Assembly (NCBI GenBank): GCA_002839095.1
Contig: PGXL01000016.1
Location: forward strand, 1-34,877
Direction of reading: 5' to 3'
Source: Tenericutes bacterium HGW-Tenericutes-2
Lineage (GTDB): Bacteria > Bacillota_I > Bacilli_A > Acholeplasmatales > Acholeplasmataceae
Length of the DNA stretch: 34,877 bases
Shown in pieces: positions 6,174-30,970 of the stretch (the stretch's first letter is position 1; every line of letters begins with the position of its first letter). The translations under genes and the position numbers were made by a program. The notes under the pieces are model-generated. The model was given only the letters and a program-made list of their open reading frames with translations, made no database searches and was not told the DNA's origin.

Positions 6174-7112
6174 TTAAATAATCATTAAAAATGATTGACT
6201 AATAATGAGCCATGCGAATAAACCTGAAATAATCAGGGTCACCACTAAAATAATCCAATATTTTTTTCTTGTGTCTTTTTGGGCTAAGAAGAAAAAATTA
6301 ATTAAATTCCAAACCAAGAATAACAGGGTTATCCATAAAACAGCAATCTGCCATGTAGAAAGCAATCTTCTAATATAGACAAAATAAATCAAGAATACAC
6401 CTAAAATAATATAGAGCGAATCAAAAATCATTGTCCCTATGGGTTTTTTGTACTTGATTTCAAGCAATGAAGAAAGACCTGTTTTGATAAGCCAGATCAA
6501 CGCTCCCATAAAAACTAATAAAAACGCAGCAGCAACTATCATGAGTAGAAAAAACAGAGCTGCAAAAACACCAATGGTTTCAGTTGGTCCTAATTGAAAA
6601 AACTCTAAGTTTGCATAATCTATCTCATAACTACGACTATAATACGAATCTTGATTAGGATCATTATGCAAAAAAAGCTGTGAGGTTGCTAGTATAGTTC
6701 CATCTGTTTTAAACATAATGAGTCTTAAATATGTAATACTATCCTCTGCCCTAAACTCATTATTATAAAAAATTACATTTCCACTTTCAGAAATAATAGT
6801 CCCTTGTACGAATGCTAGATAACTCATTTCATTATCGTCTTCAAGGTGTGTATAACTTTCATAATTTGGATATATCGCTTTATATTCTTCACTAATGGAT
6901 GAATATGTCTGATATTCATTGAAATCCGATTTAAGAACCATCAGTTCAACATGAATATCTTCTATATCTATACCATCATTTGAATCATAACCGATAACAA
7001 TAGTAATGCCTCGTTCCATGTCGATTGAAGCATTAGATTCAAGCCTTAAATTTAAAAATATAAATACAGTGCTAATTAGAAGAATAAAAATAGTTACTTT
7101 TTTAATTTTCAT
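6174..7112 (-). CDS. Membrane protein with an extracellular domain and four C-terminal helices (copy 2)
   Basis: I do not recognise a named family. The 312-residue protein has an N-terminal hydrophobic segment (signal anchor or signal peptide), then about 150 residues likely outside the cell, then four membrane helices from about residue 180 to the end. The outer part holds DIHVELMVLKSDF, HLEDDNEMSYLAF and SITYLRLIMFKTDGTILA, which are also found in the gene next to it, so the two are tandem paralogues. The C-terminal part shares WN..N.F.L followed by RKKY. ATG 7112 is chosen because GGGGG lies five bases upstream; the ATG at 7124 overlaps that G-run. A more distant relative with the same layout lies at 19387-20343. 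A sensing or adhesion role is possible but unproven. Confidence 0.7.
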   Translation of the reverse strand: MKIKKVTIFILLISTVFIFLNLRLESNASIDMERGITIVIGYDSNDGIDIEDIHVELMVLKSDFNEYQTYSSISEEYKAIYPNYESYTHLEDDNEMSYLAFVQGTIISESGNVIFYNNEFRAEDSITYLRLIMFKTDGTILATSQLFLHNDPNQDSYYSRSYEIDYANLEFFQLGPTETIGVFAALFFLLMIVAAAFLLVFMGALIWLIKTGLSSLLEIKYKKPIGTMIFDSLYIILGVFLIYFVYIRRLLSTWQIAVLWITLLFLVWNLINFFFLAQKDTRKKYWIILVVTLIISGLFAWLIISQSFLMII

Positions 7113-7158
7113 ATGATCCCCCATTATGAAACTTCTTGTTCATACTCTATCATTATAT

Positions 7159-8079
7159 TTACTCTATAAAGAATTTAAATATTATAAGGATAAGTAAACT
7201 AAAGAAAACATATAAAATGAGCGTTACAATTAAGTATTTTTTTCTAGACTCTTTTTCTACCAAAGTAAAGTAATTGGTTGCATTCCATATTAGAAATATT
7301 AATGTGGAAAATAAAGCTGAACTTAAAAACTCTCGGTTGAAAACTTTTATATGGTAATGTAAGCCAATTGCTAATCCAAAGAAAATAAAAAGAATATCTG
7401 TTAATTTAGTGTTTTTTTGTTTAATATATTTAACTTTAAAAAGAGCGCTTAACCCTACCTTTGCTAACCAAATGACTAGAACAGCACCTATAAAAGCACC
7501 AGCACCTATCAAAAAAATGAATAGGATTAATTTTTCAAAGCTTTGTCCTACTCCTTCTTGAACAGTTTGTGAGAACGTATAATTATCAAAGTTAGCATGA
7601 TAAACATCTCTTGAACCTGAATCATACCTATCCGTATGCATGTATAACTCAGATCTAGCTAGAATGGTTCCATCTGAAGTAAACATAACTAATCTTAAAT
7701 AAGTAATACTTTCTAAAAATCCATAATCATCACTATATGTAATTTTATCACTCTCTTTGTACATGAATGTATTATATATATATGCAAGATAACTGATTTC
7801 AGTATCATCTTCAAGGTGAGAATAGCTTAAATAATTTGGATAGCTCATCTGATAAATCTCATTTATGGTTGACATTATATAGTCATCATGGAAATCAGAT
7901 TTAAGAACCATGAGTTCTACATGGATGTCTTCATAATCAATATTGCTATTTGATGATTTAGTAATATATATATTAATCCCTGAAACAATATCAATTGAGG
8001 CTTGTGATTTAAAACTGATACCAAATGCAAAAAATGTAACAATTAATAAAACAAGGAATATAGTTATTCTTCTTATCAT
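7159..8079 (-). CDS. Membrane protein with an extracellular domain and four C-terminal helices (copy 1)
   Basis: This 306-residue paralogue of the next gene downstream shares the same order: N-terminal hydrophobic segment, an outer domain rich in acidic and aromatic residues, then four membrane helices. Shared blocks include DIHVELMVLKSDF, HLEDDTEISYLAY and ITYLRLVMFTSDGTILA. ATG 8079 has GGGGG seven bases upstream; a GTG at 8082 is closer to it and less likely. The sequence from -10 to the ribosome site is nearly repeated in front of the second copy, so duplication included the leader, or both are under one control. The two genes are 46 bases apart. Function unknown. Confidence 0.7.
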   Translation of the reverse strand: MIRRITIFLVLLIVTFFAFGISFKSQASIDIVSGINIYITKSSNSNIDYEDIHVELMVLKSDFHDDYIMSTINEIYQMSYPNYLSYSHLEDDTEISYLAYIYNTFMYKESDKITYSDDYGFLESITYLRLVMFTSDGTILARSELYMHTDRYDSGSRDVYHANFDNYTFSQTVQEGVGQSFEKLILFIFLIGAGAFIGAVLVIWLAKVGLSALFKVKYIKQKNTKLTDILFIFFGLAIGLHYHIKVFNREFLSSALFSTLIFLIWNATNYFTLVEKESRKKYLIVTLILYVFFSLLILIIFKFFIE

Positions 8080-8112
8080 CACATGACCCCCATCACGAAA
8101 CTATTTGTACAT

Positions 8113-12863: not shown

Positions 12864-15800
12864 ATGTGTCTCAAGGGTTTGGTTAAATATGTCAGCTTGA
12901 TTATACTGATCTTGTTTTTATGGTCCTGTCAAAAAGAACAGGATATCCTAATAGAGACTATTGAAATCAATCAAACAACCTTGAACTCACAATATGATCC
13001 TGATACATTTGATTTATCGTCAATAGAGTTGGTTATTCATATGAGTGATCAAAGTGTAGAAACGATTCCTTTAAGTCATTCCATGCTTTCGTCTGATGAC
13101 TACATTAAGTTAATGACTACAGGAACGCATACGATTACTGTTAGGTATCAAGGCCTAGAAACAACATTAACTATCACGATGAGTTACTCTGAATTAAAAA
13201 CAAAACTACACCTAATCTATGCTCTAGCAATTCAGACATCAGATATACCAGATACCTATGAGGAGTGGTTTGAATCGATTTGTGGTGAGGATGGAAGATC
13301 CATAACTAACGCCTTTATTTCTCCTTTCGGACATCTAATGATTACCTATTCAGATGATACAATAGATGACTTAGGTAAAATCATAGGTACAGATGGACGT
13401 GAAGTAGAATTTGATGTCAATGATGAAGCACTTCTTTGGCGATATGTCGATGATATTTCCTGGCAAATACTCATTGAAAAAAGCTTTATAAAAGGTGTTG
13501 GTATCGATGATATAGAGATTAATGCAGAAGGAAATCTTATCATTACCTTAACGAACTCAGAGACTATAGACCTTGGAATGATACGTGGTTATCAAGTGAT
13601 TTTTGTTGGACATCATGGAAATATAATCAAATCTTATTGGGTCAAACCTTTATCACAAATCATTCCACCTGATGGACCAATCATTCCTGGATATACCTTT
13701 TCAGCTTGGGACCATTCCACAGAATCTATAACAGGTCATCTGATTGTTAAAGCACTTTATACAAAGAATACATACCAAATCAATTTTGAAACAAATACTC
13801 AAGTGGTCATATCTCCAATCATAAATATAGAGTATGAAAATAGCGTTACATTGCCAATTCCAGTCTATGAGGGGCATGTTTTTATTGGCTGGTATCAAGG
13901 AGATTCCGTCAATAGTGCACCATTTTATAATACCTCCTTAGTCACATCCAATTTAACGCTTTATGCAAGATACGCAAAATCAAGCTACACCGTAGAATTT
14001 CAAAACTTAAGTGAAGAAACCATTTCACTTCAAACCATATCCTATCAAGAAAGTGCATTGGAACCTCTAGCACCTTATAAGCCTGGTTATAAATTTACAG
14101 GCTGGGATCAAGTGTTTACATCTATTACTTCTGATTTAATTATTAAACCGACATATCAAGAGATTTATTATTCAATAAGCTTCATTACCTATACGGATAC
14201 ATCAATACCTACAATGGACACAATCCCCTATGGATTTGGTGTAATACTTCCTGATATATTTAAATTAGATTATGATTTTATGGGGTGGTATTATAAAGGT
14301 CAGCTTTGTGAAACGACTCATATCATGCCAGATGAAGATATCATCTTATTTGCTCAGTGGCAAAGACACGCATATACACTTTCATTTGATTCAAATACCG
14401 GAAGTTCAGTAGATTCATCTACATACTATAAAGGTGATTTAGTTTCAACACTTCCCACTCCAACAAAGGAAGGCTATACATTTATTGGTTGGTATACAGA
14501 TGATCAAGCATTAATCTCACCATTTACCTGGAATGTTTCACATGATATAGAAGCCTATGCAATATGGACCGGAATAGTTGACGGTATTCATTATACATTA
14601 AATGATGGTTACGCTTTTGTAACTGCTGTACCTGAAACAGATATTGAATTGATTATTCCTGATACAGTTTCTAGTTTACCTATTACACATATAGGTGCAT
14701 TAGCTATTTCATGTGGAGCAAATTTGAAAAAAATAACTTTAGGCTCAAATGTTACACACGTTGGTAATAATGCGTTTTCTTACTGCTCAAGTCTTGAAGA
14801 GATTATATTCGGACCTCATACAACATCCATTGGTGCATATGTTTTAGATGGAGCAACTAGCTTGATTCATATGACAATATCGAGTGAAGCTCCTTATACG
14901 CTCAAATACTACTTTGGTGCTTCATTAGGTGATATTCCAGGCACTTTACTTTCCATTAGATACGCAGAGGGTTCTAATTTTATAAATCCGACACTTTATC
15001 AAAATGAAATGCTCTCTAAAACATTGATTCTACCAAATGATATGACATCAATTCCAAGTGGGCAATTCATAAATACACCTTATTTAAAAAATATTGTATT
15101 ACCTCCAAACTTAATAACTATCGGAGATTCTGCATTCGAGCAAAGTGGAATAACAAGTATAAGTATTCCCAATACTGTTCAAATAATTGAAAGAGAAGCC
15201 TTCTTTAATACACAGCAATTGTCTACTTTAATATTCGAGGAGGATAGCACAATACATACAATTAGCTATGATGCATTCCGTTCATCAAGTATTGAAGGCT
15301 CACTAGTTATTCCTGCCTCAGTAGCTACAATCTATGGAGGAGCATTCTCTAATACGAAGCTAGTTAATGTTTCATTTGAGGAAGGTAGTCAATTGACCGC
15401 TATACTCAACCATGTTTTCTCTACAAATTTCAAGTTAAAATCGATAATTCTTCCTTCAACTATTACAAGTATAGGGCTTTACTCATTTGGATCTTCAAAT
15501 GTATTAGAAGAAATTATCATACCTCTTGGAGTGACCCATATATATTCAAATGCATTTTCTTCGTGTCCTGTGCTCACTATATATGCGGAAATCGATAGTA
15601 AACCTTCTGGTTGGGATGCTAACTTTAATCCAAACAATAGACCTATTTACTGGTCATTTGAAAGTAAGTACTCAGATATTGATTATAAATATCTACTATT
15701 CACTACTGATGAAGCACTTCTTCTTGGAAGATCAGATACCAATACGGATACAGATATTATCATTCCTAAAACTGTCATTTCACATAATGTAGTTGAAATC

Positions 15801-16415
15801 TTTAGTAAAGCATTTGATGGAGATACAACCATAGAGACTTTATACATTCCTAACACATTAAAAAAGATTGGATCCTACGCGTTTAGAGAAAATACCTCAC
15901 TTACATCTATTACCTTTGAAGAAAATAGTCAATTAGAAACAATTGATATGCATGCATTTTATAATGCATCGAGTCTAACAGGTGTTATATTACCTGACCA
16001 ATTGAAGGTGATAGGAATCCTTGCATTTAGAAATACAGCAATCACTGAAATTGTAATTCCAAATAGTGTAGTTACTATAGATAATTATGCATTTGAGATG
16101 TGCTATGATTTAGAGGTTGTATCCTTTGAGACTGGAAGTTCGTTACAAACCTTAGGTATTGGAGTCTTTTCGAGAACAGGTGTTATCGATATAGTATTGC
16201 CTAATTCATTAACATCGATTGGAAATTATTGTTTCCAAATCAATGCAAGTCTTCTATCTGTCTATATTCCTGAGAGTGTTATCTATGTTGGAAGTCATTT
16301 GTTTAGCAATTCTATAAATGCAGTTGTCTATGTTCAATCAGCTGTTCAACCAACATTATGGAATTCAGATTGGAATAGCACAGGGAATACTGTAGTATGG
16401 GGATATCTAATATAA
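12864..16415 (+). CDS. BspA-like leucine-rich-repeat surface lipoprotein with InlB-type repeats
   Basis: This 1183-residue protein starts with a lipoprotein signal ending LWSC (Cys22), so it is anchored to the outer face of the membrane. Residues 30-106 look like an Ig-like domain. Residues 143-240 form a module with DGRSITNAF, DGREVEFDVND and LIEKSFIKGVGIDDI. Five Listeria-Bacteroides-type repeats (Flg_new, F.GW motifs) span about 243-568. Two blocks of BspA-type repeats (LRR_5) span about 572-932 and 938-1183, and both end in a similar cap (KPSGWDANFNPNN.PIYW and QPTLWNSDWNSTGNTVVW). Such proteins usually bind host or neighbour surfaces; that role is inferred. The start has AAGGAGGG upstream. 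No LPXTG signal is present. It is monocistronic; no clear terminator follows. Confidence 0.85.
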   Translation: MCLKGLVKYVSLIILILFLWSCQKEQDILIETIEINQTTLNSQYDPDTFDLSSIELVIHMSDQSVETIPLSHSMLSSDDYIKLMTTGTHTITVRYQGLETTLTITMSYSELKTKLHLIYALAIQTSDIPDTYEEWFESICGEDGRSITNAFISPFGHLMITYSDDTIDDLGKIIGTDGREVEFDVNDEALLWRYVDDISWQILIEKSFIKGVGIDDIEINAEGNLIITLTNSETIDLGMIRGYQVIFVGHHGNIIKSYWVKPLSQIIPPDGPIIPGYTFSAWDHSTESITGHLIVKALYTKNTYQINFETNTQVVISPIINIEYENSVTLPIPVYEGHVFIGWYQGDSVNSAPFYNTSLVTSNLTLYARYAKSSYTVEFQNLSEETISLQTISYQESALEPLAPYKPGYKFTGWDQVFTSITSDLIIKPTYQEIYYSISFITYTDTSIPTMDTIPYGFGVILPDIFKLDYDFMGWYYKGQLCETTHIMPDEDIILFAQWQRHAYTLSFDSNTGSSVDSSTYYKGDLVSTLPTPTKEGYTFIGWYTDDQALISPFTWNVSHDIEAYAIWTGIVDGIHYTLNDGYAFVTAVPETDIELIIPDTVSSLPITHIGALAISCGANLKKITLGSNVTHVGNNAFSYCSSLEEIIFGPHTTSIGAYVLDGATSLIHMTISSEAPYTLKYYFGASLGDIPGTLLSIRYAEGSNFINPTLYQNEMLSKTLILPNDMTSIPSGQFINTPYLKNIVLPPNLITIGDSAFEQSGITSISIPNTVQIIEREAFFNTQQLSTLIFEEDSTIHTISYDAFRSSSIEGSLVIPASVATIYGGAFSNTKLVNVSFEEGSQLTAILNHVFSTNFKLKSIILPSTITSIGLYSFGSSNVLEEIIIPLGVTHIYSNAFSSCPVLTIYAEIDSKPSGWDANFNPNNRPIYWSFESKYSDIDYKYLLFTTDEALLLGRSDTNTDTDIIIPKTVISHNVVEIFSKAFDGDTTIETLYIPNTLKKIGSYAFRENTSLTSITFEENSQLETIDMHAFYNASSLTGVILPDQLKVIGILAFRNTAITEIVIPNSVVTIDNYAFEMCYDLEVVSFETGSSLQTLGIGVFSRTGVIDIVLPNSLTSIGNYCFQINASLLSVYIPESVIYVGSHLFSNSINAVVYVQSAVQPTLWNSDWNSTGNTVVWGYLI

Positions 16416-26255: not shown

Positions 26256-26403
26256 ATTCACCTCATGTTATAATGATGTTTTATTAATGAAAGTTCTATT
26301 TATTAATATATTAGCATTCTAACATGTATATGTAAACATTCCTTTGTGTTAATTAAACTAGCAATCTAGTAGTAATCAAAGAAATACGCATAGATTAATA
26401 AAA

Positions 26404-26452
26404 AAACCACAACCTCTGCTCACAACTATTTGTGAGTTTACTGATTGTAGTT
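26404..26452 (-). terminator. Intrinsic terminator of the HTH gene
   Basis: An inner perfect stem ctcacaa/ttgtgag (26419-26425 with 26430-26436) is extended by an outer imperfect stem (aaccacaacc with gattgtagtt). On the minus strand six T follow. Confidence 0.65.
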
Positions 26453-26484
26453 ATTTTTCTTTAGTACACTATACCAATCAAACA

Positions 26485-26667
26485 TTATTCAGGCTTATTT
26501 GTTCCTCTACTGATAAACTCCTGAAGTGCTTTATCGGTAACTCTCCAATACTTACCGATTTTAACGGCTTTTAAATTATGTAGTTTAATGAAATTGTAGA
26601 TTGTTCTAGGTGTAACTTTTAAAATCTCTGAAACTTCTTCGATTGTGTATAACTTAAACTCGCTCAT
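26485..26667 (-). CDS. Excisionase-type helix-turn-helix DNA-binding protein
   Basis: This 60-residue protein is a single HTH_17/MerR-like domain: LYTIEEVSEILKVTPRTIYNFI forms the helix-turn-helix and VKIGKYWRVTDKALQEFI the wing and last helix. Such proteins act as excisionases or small regulators. No integrase, attachment site or phage gene lies nearby, so a stand-alone regulator is more likely here. ATG 26667 is preceded by GGAGGTGGAGACA; a GTG upstream would overlap that site. It has a near-consensus promoter and its own terminator. Confidence 0.8.
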   Translation of the reverse strand: MSEFKLYTIEEVSEILKVTPRTIYNFIKLHNLKAVKIGKYWRVTDKALQEFISRGTNKPE

Positions 26668-26682
26668 TGTCTCCACCTCCAA

Positions 26683-27103
26683 CAGTAAAAACTAAATTCT
26701 ATATAAATTGTAGCATTTATTAACCATAAAATCAAGTGAAATAGTTGTTGTTTTGCCATTTTAAAGTGAAGATGAGTGCGTTTTTTACATTTTCATACAG
26801 TATTCATGTTTTTATTTATTTTTCATTACATATTAGGTTGATTTGTGAATCATAGAAACACGATAGATGAGCGCTATAATATCATCAATTTATTGCTATT
26901 ATAAACTATATGATATTAGATATAATTAATTTTTAGTTTGAAAATTAATAAAGTGATTTAGATTAATAAAAAATTATTCATTTATTCCTATCCAATCAAT
27001 AAATTCTATTCAAATGATTCACTTATATATATTGCTATCCAAATGGGTTCTCCTATTTTTGGAGATGGTTCACAGTTAATTCATTTCTCAATCTATTTAA
27101 TTT
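26683..27103. other. AT-rich intergenic region with the HTH gene promoter
   Basis: The right flank of the HTH gene holds its promoter (26707-26735). The remaining roughly 370 bases are very AT-rich, with no supported coding sequence. A short hairpin (tctcc/ggaga, about 27048-27066) lies after the 27104 gene without a T-run. No RNA gene or repeat array is recognised. Confidence 0.5.
26707..26735 (-). promoter_or_regulatory. Promoter of the HTH gene
   Basis: TTGATT (26730-26735) and TACAAT (26707-26712) are 17 bases apart on the minus strand, with an extended -10 TGC before TACAAT. Confidence 0.65.
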
Positions 27104-27916
27104 TTATGATTGATCCTCATCACCATAATAAACTTTAAAATTCACATTACAAATACTACTAAGTTGAAACCATAGGTTTTCATCATCATTTGATAAAGCA
27201 AGAAAATGATTACTTCCAGCTTGATTAAATCCATCGGCACTAAAAGCCAATTGAACTTCTATCATCCCACTTTGAACACTCTCATCAAAGTCGGGGTCTT
27301 GTTGCTCTAACCAGATAATAACTCGAAAAAACTTAATTTCTCCAGGTCTTAAATTATCTATTTCCGCTCTAAAAACGATGTTTTGTGTCAGAAAATCAAT
27401 ACCTGTAGGCATTTGCTCATATGTCGGTTGGTTGTTGAACTCATCTGCTTGATCAATTTTTTGATACATTTGACTCTCGTCATCTTCAATCACGATGATT
27501 CTAATGAAATCATCAATATGATTAAAAACCGAAGTAATCTTCATGTAATACCGAACGTCTATCGTATCTGCTCCACTATTCTTGAGGTAAAAGCTGTATG
27601 ACATATATTTATTATTCGGATCTATATAATAACCTTCACTGTTTTGTATGTCATCTAAAATAATATCATTATATGTAACTTCGGAATATATATATGAATC
27701 AATAGTTAATCTTGAGGTTGATGAATCAAATGTTACACTCTCAGAAATTTCTATACCTCTCATTGATGCAGGACTTGGGCCAACTGTCATTGTGAAATTC
27801 CCAGTATAAAGTCTAGCATATAAGATTGATCCAATAGATATAGAGAGTAAAATTAGAAATACTCCTAAAAATAGATGATCAGTTATCTTTTGATGATTGT
27901 CTTTGAATGGTTCCAT
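27104..27916 (-). CDS. Membrane-anchored beta-rich surface protein, TasA/camelysin-like by layout
   Basis: This 270-residue protein has one membrane anchor (about residues 15-37), then an extracellular, beta-strand-rich part. Blocks such as MSYSFYLKNSGADTIDVRYY followed by an amphipathic stretch, and NLRPGEIKFFRVIIWLE, recall the TasA/camelysin type of surface beta-sandwich, but the similarity is by eye only and no SipW-type signal peptidase is seen nearby. ATG 27916 has AAAGGAAT upstream; the start at 27934 is before that site. The gene lies 43 bases after the WG-repeat lipoprotein gene and is probably in the same operon. Function unknown. Confidence 0.6.
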   Translation of the reverse strand: MEPFKDNHQKITDHLFLGVFLILLSISIGSILYARLYTGNFTMTVGPSPASMRGIEISESVTFDSSTSRLTIDSYIYSEVTYNDIILDDIQNSEGYYIDPNNKYMSYSFYLKNSGADTIDVRYYMKITSVFNHIDDFIRIIVIEDDESQMYQKIDQADEFNNQPTYEQMPTGIDFLTQNIVFRAEIDNLRPGEIKFFRVIIWLEQQDPDFDESVQSGMIEVQLAFSADGFNQAGSNHFLALSNDDENLWFQLSSICNVNFKVYYGDEDQS

Positions 27917-27959
27917 ATTATCATTCCTTTCCATAATTACTTATAATTAAGAAAACAAA

Positions 27960-29639
27960 CTAATGGAGGGGACTATATGTTGGCATTTGTGAAATACCAT
28001 CATACATCTCTGTCCCTACTTTAACGAAATCAAAGGTCATAATCATATACTTGCCATCTTGACTAAATACGTAATATCGATCATATAGCGAGCGTTCATA
28101 ATTAAACAAACGATCTTTTGTAACAATCTTAAAGAAATTATCTGTCAAATGTTCTCTTATGTTAGTATATCCACCATTATTATAATCGATGGTTTGTAGT
28201 GTTGAAAACATTTCATACGTCATATTTTTGGCTTCTACTACTTCATGATTCTCTGTTATATAATACATATTCGTGAATGCTTGTTTGTCGGTTATTGATT
28301 CATCAATTACTCCCATCCATTGTTTATCAATATGTATTAAATTTTCAGCTGAATAAACTGCATTCCCTTCGTCATCAAGTAGAAACGTTGTTTGTTTTTC
28401 TTGCACATCATCGTCATCAAAAGCATAAAACATCTTCAATTCAGGTGAATAGCTTATATAAGAATATGCTCTACTGATTATTTCAAATTCTCTATTGATT
28501 AAATAATAGTTATTATCTTTTCCAATGTAGGCTAATCCATACTCGTTAAACGCGCCTGCATAATTGTATTCCATAGATAAAGGTTCGCCTAGTTGGTTGA
28601 CATATTGTACTCCTTTTTCAAAGATCGTATCGCTACAACAGCTTGAAATAACGTAAAGATTTTCATCTGCCTTAAAAAAGGTTTGCACTCTTTCATAATC
28701 TTCTAGTGAAAATAGTTTTTGTAGGCCTTCGTAAAAATGAGCAACTTGGTTTTGATCTATTCCAACAAATAAATTCTTGTTGTGATTTACAAAGGAAAAC
28801 GAGGTATTAGATAACCTTAAACCTGAGTGATGATCTACTATTACCTTATATCGAAGTGTCGTATCTTCAATGAAAATATATTCTTCATTTGCTTCTATTA
28901 TTGACCCATAGGTGTAGCCTTCTTGATTTCCTATACGGTTACCTTGTTTCGTATAAACATACATCAGTGGGTCTTCTCGATAAAAGAATACATCTTTGAA
29001 TTGAAAAATAGTTCCGCTTAACACCTCTATTTCATTTAAAATATTAAACTCTGCATCAAGAAAACTATACACTCTATCCTTAAGAGCAAGATATCCATCT
29101 TTATCATTATGCATAATGATACGATGATATGACTCTATTAAATCAAATCGAGGATGATTAACATCAAAGATGTAATACCTATCCTCAATAAAAACTGTTA
29201 ATTTTTCATCATGAATAACCATTCCTTGACGATTTGTGTTTTCTAATCTCAAAATCAATTCCGCTTTTGAATTATAAAAGAGTCTCTCATCATCTACTAT
29301 GGCTTCAAAATAACTCGGTCTTTCTGGTGTACGTGAATAACTCATATATCGCTGTTCTATATGCTTGATCTCTTCATGTGTAACAATCTTTTTATTTTTA
29401 TAGTTAATCAAATGAAATCCTTCGTTGTCCTTTGCAAGTGCAATACCTTCTTTAGTAAATGGAGAAAGCATATCATAAGTAAATGGTATGACCAACTCTC
29501 CTAACTGATTAATCGCACCATATTTTCCATCCTTTATTACTGAAAAATAGATCATTTCATCATCTTCTAATGAATTTTTACAAGAAGCTAAAGCAAAAAA
29601 ACTACAAAGTAAAATTGCAATCAGTATTATTTTTTTCAT
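27960..29639 (-). CDS. WG-repeat-containing lipoprotein
   Basis: This 559-residue protein has a lipoprotein signal ending FALASC (Cys20), so it sits on the outer face of the membrane. The first part shows a clear WG-type repeat (GKYGAINQLGELVIPFTYD, then a second GIALAKDNEGFHLIN unit), and further degenerate units follow (for example FEKGVQYVNQLGEPLSMEYN and GLAYIGKDNNYYLINREFEI), consistent with a propeller- or beta-repeat fold along most of its length. ATG 29639 has GGGGGG seven bases upstream; the in-frame start at 29654 is upstream of that site. The beta-rich anchored protein follows 43 bases later. WG-repeat proteins often have unknown binding functions. Confidence 0.75.
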   Translation of the reverse strand: MKKIILIAILLCSFFALASCKNSLEDDEMIYFSVIKDGKYGAINQLGELVIPFTYDMLSPFTKEGIALAKDNEGFHLINYKNKKIVTHEEIKHIEQRYMSYSRTPERPSYFEAIVDDERLFYNSKAELILRLENTNRQGMVIHDEKLTVFIEDRYYIFDVNHPRFDLIESYHRIIMHNDKDGYLALKDRVYSFLDAEFNILNEIEVLSGTIFQFKDVFFYREDPLMYVYTKQGNRIGNQEGYTYGSIIEANEEYIFIEDTTLRYKVIVDHHSGLRLSNTSFSFVNHNKNLFVGIDQNQVAHFYEGLQKLFSLEDYERVQTFFKADENLYVISSCCSDTIFEKGVQYVNQLGEPLSMEYNYAGAFNEYGLAYIGKDNNYYLINREFEIISRAYSYISYSPELKMFYAFDDDDVQEKQTTFLLDDEGNAVYSAENLIHIDKQWMGVIDESITDKQAFTNMYYITENHEVVEAKNMTYEMFSTLQTIDYNNGGYTNIREHLTDNFFKIVTKDRLFNYERSLYDRYYVFSQDGKYMIMTFDFVKVGTEMYDGISQMPTYSPLH

Positions 29640-29756
29640 ATTTGTGCCCCCCAATTATAAATATATTAAATTTTTAAATAATCGCATCTATAGACTGAAC
29701 TATACATCAAATAATTAACTTAATTATATCATGATTAGAGATACATAAACAAGATG

Positions 29757-29796
29757 AAAAAAGCTTGCTCCAATGTATTATCGGACACAAGCTCTA
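29757..29796 (-). terminator. Intrinsic terminator of the potABCD operon
   Basis: Stem agcttg (29762-29767) with caagct (29788-29793), extended weakly within the loop. On the minus strand six T follow. Confidence 0.65.
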
Positions 29797-29818
29797 TAGT
29801 TTTTTATTCTATTTAGGA

Positions 29819-30970
29819 CTAACCTGTAACAACCTGTTGAACCATGGATGTAATAGCATCTATAGCTGAAGAACTTAGAGTAGTCATTGGATAGAATGAG
29901 CCTTCACGATCCTTATTGTAATAAGTAAGGTTTGCTAATGCCCAATTCTTATACCAATCATCAGTTGATGTTTGGTAAGAAACGATAATGTCATAAGCTT
30001 CTTCTAATGCTGTAGCATAACCAACAACTTCAGAATTTAATGCTACCACTTCAGGATCAAGTAAATAGTTAATAAATTGATGTGCACCATCGATATTTTT
30101 GGCAGTTTTAGGAATAACCATACCATCAATAAATACTAAAGTATTTTCTGGTATATAAATATCAAAGTTAGCTCTAACTTGTTCCAAGCTCTTACCTTCA
30201 TCTAGTTGAATATATAGACGGTCTAGATAATCACCCGTATAAGTAAATGCCATATCTAGGTTATCAGCTTCGATATCACGCTTTAACATATCATCACCCC
30301 ATTGAGTGAAGTTAGCATTTTGTAAATCAAGCTTAACTTGATTTAAATAAGCTGTTGAATAATCGTTTGGATTTTGATCGCGATAAAGCATAGCAGCTGC
30401 ATAAGCAAATTGAGCAACATCATACATGCCACGTCTTGCATTAGGGAAATGTGTGGTTGCATCAAAATATGCAGCCCATCCATATTGGTTTAATGCTTCC
30501 TTCAATCCAGAAACACGGTTATTATAAATGATACCAAATGTTCCCCAAAAGTAAGGAACCATATAATCTTTGTAGTCAACAGTTTTGCCATTTCTTTCAA
30601 AGGTTGTCTCAGCCATAGAGTCAAAAATTTGTTCAACCCCATCCATATAAGTCACATCATCATAATTTGGAAGCTTCGAATAGTCTAGTGCATGAAGCAT
30701 ATCTTCTTCATACATTTTTTCAATCATGTAATCTGATGGGATAACCAAATCAAAGGATGTTGTTCCACTCTTAATCTTTGAATAGAAGAGTTCGTTTGAA
30801 TCAGCGACACTGATTTTCACATTAATCCCATATTCGTTTTCAAAGTTTTTAACAACTTCTTCGTTAATATATTCACCCCAGTTTAAGATATTTAATACTG
30901 GACGTGAGTCACAAGCAGATGCCCCAATTGCAACTAGTGCAAGGACTATGATAAGTAATAGTTTCTTCAT
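29819..30970 (-). CDS. potD: Spermidine/putrescine-binding lipoprotein PotD
   Basis: This 383-residue substrate-binding lipoprotein of the polyamine ABC importer has a signal peptide ending GASAC (Cys20). Mature sequence blocks LNILNWGEYINEEVVKNFE, FDLVIPSDYMIEKM and VPYFWGTFGIIYNN match PotD, as does the late QFINYLLDPEVVALNSE. The gene starts inside the stop of potC (4-base overlap), with AAGGAAC as ribosome site. Its place as the last gene of potABCD is typical of Firmicutes and mollicutes. Exact preference for spermidine or putrescine cannot be told. Confidence 0.92.
   Translation of the reverse strand: MKKLLLIIVLALVAIGASACDSRPVLNILNWGEYINEEVVKNFENEYGINVKISVADSNELFYSKIKSGTTSFDLVIPSDYMIEKMYEEDMLHALDYSKLPNYDDVTYMDGVEQIFDSMAETTFERNGKTVDYKDYMVPYFWGTFGIIYNNRVSGLKEALNQYGWAAYFDATTHFPNARRGMYDVAQFAYAAAMLYRDQNPNDYSTAYLNQVKLDLQNANFTQWGDDMLKRDIEADNLDMAFTYTGDYLDRLYIQLDEGKSLEQVRANFDIYIPENTLVFIDGMVIPKTAKNIDGAHQFINYLLDPEVVALNSEVVGYATALEEAYDIIVSYQTSTDDWYKNWALANLTYYNKDREGSFYPMTTLSSSAIDAITSMVQQVVTG

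Follow-up and report, generated by a model that had tools for sequence, protein, structure and literature searches.

CoCoPALM systems were named in 2024 and left for later study (eLife 2024, PMC11090510). The passages of that paper devoted to them describe an McrB-like NxD GTPase fused to an FtsB-like transmembrane segment and a coiled coil, together with a McrC homologue that carries DUF2357 and an associated protein of the signal peptidase family; our literature search met the name only in that paper and its preprint. A second point of reference is the TasA–SipW–TapA fibre of Bacillus subtilis, in which, according to the relevant passage of PMC9674648, an N-terminal strand of TasA serves as donor strand. 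Here we compare with these systems a pair of genes on the window (the whole stretch of 34,877 nucleotides that was analysed) and relate one of the two to a CoCoPALM-type cluster elsewhere in the same genome.

Genes of the window

Two intact open reading frames lie 25 nt apart on the minus strand, P0002 upstream and P0001 downstream:

27960–29639, minus strand: P0002, 559 aa from an internal ATG, with WG repeats at the N-terminal side and a lipoprotein-type signal
27104–27934, minus strand: P0001, 276 aa, a predicted membrane-anchored pilin-like β-sandwich and, by sequence, an orphan that is paralogous to the gene opening the CoCoPALM-type cluster

For P0001 the second ATG, at 27916, is probably the better start, because AAAGGA precedes it. 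Promoter-like sites in 26400–30000 show no excess (24, against a shuffle mean of 23.8). A lone HTH_17 protein of 65 aa is encoded near the pair (26485–26682). Further away, the window carries a pair of transposase genes with HTH_Tnp_1 and rve domains (160–1355), two membrane proteins in tandem that look similar by eye and have no Pfam match (6174–7124 and 7159–8082), and a 1183-aa lipoprotein-like open reading frame with Listeria–Bacteroides repeats and BspA-type leucine-rich repeats (12864–16415).

In contrast to the CoCoPALM systems in the passages that describe them (PMC11090510), the window copy of P0001 stands alone. A profile search gave no match to the TIGR02228 signal peptidase on the window contig, and reading the window's open reading frames revealed neither a CoCoPALM-type GTPase nor a DUF2357 protein. 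We therefore rejected the window locus as a CoCoPALM locus, because none of the three was found beside P0001.

A CoCoPALM-type cluster elsewhere in the genome

Another contig of this genome, C38, holds two further P0001 copies 14.7 kb apart, each of which opens a module of a cluster that was read over positions 130000–168900:

L043:12434–19901 and L044:610–18699 (genome G000, contig C38): two-module CoCoPALM-type cluster, about 25 kb

By eye, genes for lysine biosynthesis and for two proteins of GGDEF/EAL type lie upstream of it. Both modules run in the same order, from the P0001-like gene through gene 2 (TYAW, about 320 aa), gene 3 (TFAWF, about 300 aa) and a SipW-type signal peptidase to a GTPase (about 510 aa) that has a membrane segment at its N terminus. 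Beyond the GTPase, module 1 continues with further small secreted proteins and with a secreted protein of 2329 aa that has no Pfam match, and module 2 with a DUF2357 protein, a second peptidase and further secreted proteins. The peptidase scores 73.1 bits against TIGR02228 (cut-off 51.85; three matches on the contig exceed it), and DUF2357 (PF09823) matches in module 2 at 5.8e-12, none having been seen in module 1. Against AAA_5 the GTPase reaches 20.5 bits, just under the cut-off of 22, and both copies carry the NxD string GTANKDDS. GTPases of related loci have GTANxDDS in 59 of 67 cases (eight are without the string) and a transmembrane-like segment in all 61 that exceed 420 aa.

By its gene content the C38 cluster matches the CoCoPALM architecture: its NxD GTPase has a membrane segment at the N terminus and is accompanied by a DUF2357 protein and by members of the signal peptidase family, as in the published description (PMC11090510, in the passages on these systems). 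Those passages name no pilin-like subunits, whereas genes 1–3 here are predicted to encode such proteins. Gene 2 and gene 3 are homologous over their whole length (E 2.9e-34), and both match the P0001 family in their C-terminal part, with E values of 3.8e-7 and 1.5e-7. A SipW-type [YF]A[WY] string near the N terminus occurs in 29 of 29 gene-3 rows and 24 of 25 gene-2 rows but in 0 of 52 rows of the P0001 family, which therefore looks like a family of proteins that keep their membrane anchor.

Relatives of P0001 reach well beyond this genome. Matches were found in 19 of 20 genomes of the genus, and the family profile matched 47 of 392 genomes sampled across the phylum, although among the weakest rows a few are long frames, perhaps of gene-2 type. 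Named genomes, when scanned, yielded at least 529 relatives, the best 80 of which come from Acholeplasmataceae and other mollicute-related records and then from Clostridia, Ruminococcus, Lachnospiraceae and Eubacterium, so that the family, as traced by these matches, is widespread, with relatives across Bacillota. Among the best 80 of the at least 529, 57 loci offered 6 kb or more of downstream sequence (23 shorter ones were dropped); a GTPase follows in 53 of the 57, a SipW-like peptidase in 52 and DUF2357 in 40. Five loci are exceptions to the combination of GTPase plus peptidase (L087, L122, L126, L131 and L135). An overlap filter hid some P0001-like frames in the locus map, for example at L098, L100 and L103.

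A model of the gene-3 protein (from locus L071) has a pLDDT of 81.5, with residues 22–38, which include the invariant TFAWFT, below 50. Foldseek returned no match for it under E 0.001. In the VIA comparison it weakly matched FimA at Z 5.4 and the TasA fibre 8aur at Z 5.3 (rmsd 3.8 over 137), followed by the CFA/I family, the Sulfolobus 0406 filament (4.2) and Pyrobaculum bundling pili (4.0); these Z scores, like those of P0001 below, fall in the range that the tool calls common, and the informative part is the make-up of the list, in which the first 10 rows, and 27 of the 50 listed altogether, are pilus, TasA or archaeal-filament proteins. The C38 cluster likewise pairs a SipW-type peptidase with β-sandwich substrates, as the TasA–SipW–TapA fibre does (PMC9674648, the passages on its parts), and it is probably a fibre-building cluster. 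No chaperone or usher gene was noticed in it by eye. On contig C47 of the same genome, a second SipW-type cassette (L149:8624–13417) encodes a pair of signal peptidases plus three secreted proteins whose signals are of the YAYW/YAFW/FAYW type, with no such GTPase adjoining.

Predicted topology and fold of P0001

An earlier, sequence-only reading had taken P0001 to be membrane-anchored, quoting two strings from it, NSGADTIDVRYY and LRPGE, both of which are present. The anchor is borne out at the level of prediction by a single strongly hydrophobic N-terminal segment (19-residue windows starting at residues 16–26), and the structure prediction that had been suggested as a check, an AF2 model from 52 sequences (pLDDT 84, pTM 0.73), gave a helix over residues 16–43 and then a β-sandwich:

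27806–27889, minus strand: predicted N-terminal transmembrane helix, residues 16–43 (hydropathy 2.43 and helix in the model)
27779–27802, minus strand: GNFTMTVG, residues 45–52, a candidate donor strand that is conserved but left unfolded by the monomer model
27215–27757, minus strand: predicted β-sandwich domain, residues 60–240 (model strands and pLDDT; pilin domains among the VIA rows at Z about 7–8)

Structural comparison places this domain among β-sandwiches of several kinds. Foldseek gave 13 rows below E 0.001, the best being the PorA N-domain (2.2e-5, TM 0.29/0.50). VIA listed PorA at Z 9.1 (3.6 Å, 130), hexosaminidase domains at about 8–9, CfaE at 8.0 (rmsd 3.7 over 136) and self-complemented CsuA/B at 7.2 (3.9 Å, 129), so that non-pilin β-domains (PorA, hexosaminidases) equal or outscore the pilins. 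Donor-strand pilins (CfaE, CsuA/B, FimA, Sulfolobus 0406 and Pyrobaculum bundling pili) recur among the rows for P0001 and the gene-3 protein, although identity is just 3–13%. A viral structure library gave five rows below E 0.001, the best at 1.1e-4 and all with low TM-scores, and a search of solved structures with the P0001 profile gave one row, a large adhesion protein, at E 0.14.

The segment next to the helix is conserved: all 52 rows of alignment A2 have G45 and F47, and in alignment A1 F47 is replaced by M in L044 and in one of the orphan copies described below (genome G014). Residues 45–51 have a pLDDT below 50 in the monomer model. A segment that is conserved yet unpaired in the monomer is as expected of a donor strand, and TasA employs an N-terminal strand of this kind (PMC9674648).

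Orphan copies with a C-terminal extension

In alignment A1, P0001 is 30–40% identical to the cluster copies and has invariant positions in common with them. In a 34-row tree, which omitted three duplicate hits and one fragmentary hit out of 37 and was midpoint-rooted for drawing only, it forms a clade with single copies from two other genomes, L048 (G014) and L047 (G002), apart from the cluster copies (support 100/99); the exact place of L047 is unsure, because its branch is long (2.6). Such orphans occur in three of 20 genus genomes, the other two being 42% and 32% identical to P0001. A candidate fourth, G019:C79, which sits at the edge of a contig, was rejected as an ordinary cluster copy, because gene 2, a peptidase and a GTPase come after it. 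Taken together, sequence identity and tree make P0001 an orphan that is restricted to its lineage and paralogous to the gene opening the CoCoPALM modules.

What sets the orphans apart is their end, an extension of about 35 residues of the type ENLWF...NVNFKVYYGD in alignment A1:

27107–27214, minus strand: C-terminal extension of P0001, residues 241–276, found in orphans only (strand 261–270 at pLDDT 90)

Counted from the IW[LI]E motif, the C-terminal stretch is 70 residues long in P0001 and 69 and 66 in the other two orphans, as against 27–40 in all 80 loci read (the best 80 of at least 529 relatives) and 27–35 in the remaining copies examined in the genus and order; that reading was made without the genus copy G016:C70, and a contig end truncates the G019:C150 copy. 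In the model of P0001, the linker 241–260 is uncertain (pLDDT 52–56) and the strand 261–270 confident. When first and last aligned residues are compared, the last aligned residue of P0001 (273–275) falls at 376–378 of three CfaE entries, and gene 3, which has no extension, ends at 359–360 of the same entries. This suggests that the extension sits where the CfaE entries have an added C-terminal strand, the tail of those entries being an added donor strand. The idea that the extension mimics the sequence of the N-terminal strand was discarded, because in a position-matrix comparison 31%, 32% and 39% of shuffles reached its score.

We propose, with a probability of about 45%, that the C38 cluster makes a donor-strand fibre for which P0001, a membrane-held orphan, serves as an alternative base, anchor or cap, and that the WG lipoprotein is independent of P0001. 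The N-terminal helix would hold P0001 in the membrane, the conserved strand beside it (GNF.M.V) would be offered to the first fibre subunit, and the protein's own groove would be closed by the extra C-terminal strand, so that it would act in one of these three roles. Because the window contig has no TIGR02228 peptidase, any such action would be in trans.

P0001 could instead be a redundant base subunit that does the same job as the cluster copies, in which case its extension would be neutral. Its intact reading frame, its identity to the cluster copies and the invariant positions it has in common with them would all fit. That all three orphans have kept the extension despite their low identity to P0001, that none of the 80 loci has it and that its last strand is predicted so confidently argue against a neutral extension, and we regard the equivalence of P0001 to the cluster copies as doubtful.

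Probable independence of P0001 and P0002

The proposal of an alternative base, anchor or cap leaves the WG lipoprotein aside, in contrast to the sequence-only reading, which had joined it with P0001 in a possible surface complex. P0002 itself was described there as a lipoprotein made of WG-type repeats. It does score over the curated cut-off against Pfam WG_beta_rep (PF14903; 39.6 bits, 5.1e-10, cut-off 25.6), but the match is confined to two stretches and the remainder of the 559 aa is divergent, so that ‘made of WG repeats’ overstates the case:

29580–29591, minus strand: LASC (Cys20), candidate lipobox of P0002, by sequence
29424–29522, minus strand: best WG repeat of P0002, residues 40–72 (PF14903 search)

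The N terminus, MKKIILIAILLCSFFALASC, fits by eye the lipobox consensus of a lipoprotein-type signal, with Cys20 as the candidate lipid-bearing cysteine. A sequence search of solved structures with P0002 gave no row at E up to 1. P0002 is the only PF14903 match of its own genome at E 0.001. At E 0.01 it has matches in six of 61 genomes, against 34 of 61 for P0001 (own genome included in both counts), and those outside its own genome are weak. At 1e-5 it matches two of 20 genus genomes, its own included, which leaves one weak relative, and the PF14903 profile finds three of the 20 (G000, G007 and G015). Loci L033–L036 hold WG-type lipoproteins amid unrelated neighbours, and the match at L037, which sits in a gene of another kind, is probably due to chance.

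P0001 might alternatively have dropped out of the fibre system to become a receptor or adhesin tethered to the membrane, with the WG lipoprotein as its partner in a surface complex of two proteins. This would account for the arrangement of the pair: the genes are adjacent on one strand, no terminator-like site was found in 26400–30000, including between them, both products are predicted to lie on the membrane's outer side, and the GC3 of P0001 and P0002 is similar (0.238 and 0.241), as it is in three other window genes (0.23–0.25). Proteins of stable complexes are usually kept together in genomes, and this pair was found in one species only. Neither of the genomes with the closest relatives of P0001 (G014 and G002) has any PF14903 match, and the neighbours of the orphans differ: a 1302-aa protein with a SFAYWASS-type N terminus in G014, membrane proteins in G002 and the WG lipoprotein in the window. 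By eye, the G014 neighbour (L048:2834–6742) contains long internal repeats. Outside the window P0002 has 10 matches, none of them on a contig with a P0001 match (many of the contigs are short); the contig that carries its one weak relative in the genus has no P0001 match either.

The neighbourhood search that the sequence-only reading had put forward went against the complex. Seven genus members have the orthologous transporter operon (binding protein 72–86% identical, one a fragment; seven more distant binding-protein matches at 46–51% were left out of the comparison), and in all seven the 1.5 kb or less of sequence available after the binding protein is occupied by other genes, never by the P0001/P0002 pair. 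Literature searches on TasA/SipW in Mollicutes, WG-repeat lipoproteins and DUF2357 showed no such pair among the papers listed. On the strength of neighbourhoods and genome content we rejected the pair as a conserved operon, and WG lipoprotein plus TasA-like protein is not a conserved system. P0002 seems to be an independent surface lipoprotein that shares the location of P0001 by happenstance, and a two-protein complex is distinctly unlikely.

P0001 had been called TasA-like, which does not hold as a statement of sequence family: it has no PF12389 match at E up to 10 and no TIGR04088 match (the SipW-dependent signal), and a PF12389 search of its own genome gave one match below the cut-off, E 0.225, at the signal of a cluster protein. 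TasA is absent among the 50 VIA rows listed for its fold and among the Foldseek rows, which excludes nothing. A GTPase pair is not known to be part of the TasA–SipW–TapA operon. Membership of P0001 in the TasA or camelysin family of an ordinary SipW–TasA matrix operon is thus improbable: the predicted β-sandwich, the surface location and the match of the related gene-3 protein to the TasA fibre would suit it, but P0001 lacks the profile match, the SipW-type string (missing in 52 of 52 family rows) and a neighbouring peptidase, and its family seems to keep the anchor.

Implications

The broader guess of a surface fibre or matrix was a good one for P0001, because the protein is a predicted anchored β-sandwich related to a probable fibre-type cluster. 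What the analysis contributes is a pilin-like anchor family, with P0001 as its orphan variant, tied to CoCoPALM clusters; the CoCoPALM-related cluster is widespread yet barely studied, and the window pair is a modest side product. A further-reaching reading, which we consider unlikely as it stands, is that P0001 is a self-complemented tethered cap or anchor in a new class of donor-strand fibre, the assembly of which would be powered or regulated by the membrane-bound McrB-like GTPase.

Peloplasma aerotolerans M4Ah, a cultured member of the genus, has both modules (loci L071 and L089), which would make the system accessible to laboratory work. M4Ah is an isolate without a cell wall, as stated in its description (PMC11122141), and the words pili, fibril and appendage are absent from the text of that paper. 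Pilin-like subunits in CoCoPALM would give a McrBC-derived GTPase a testable function outside restriction. If the further-reaching reading is true, this would be a fibre class of wall-less bacteria, in which anchoring to peptidoglycan is impossible.
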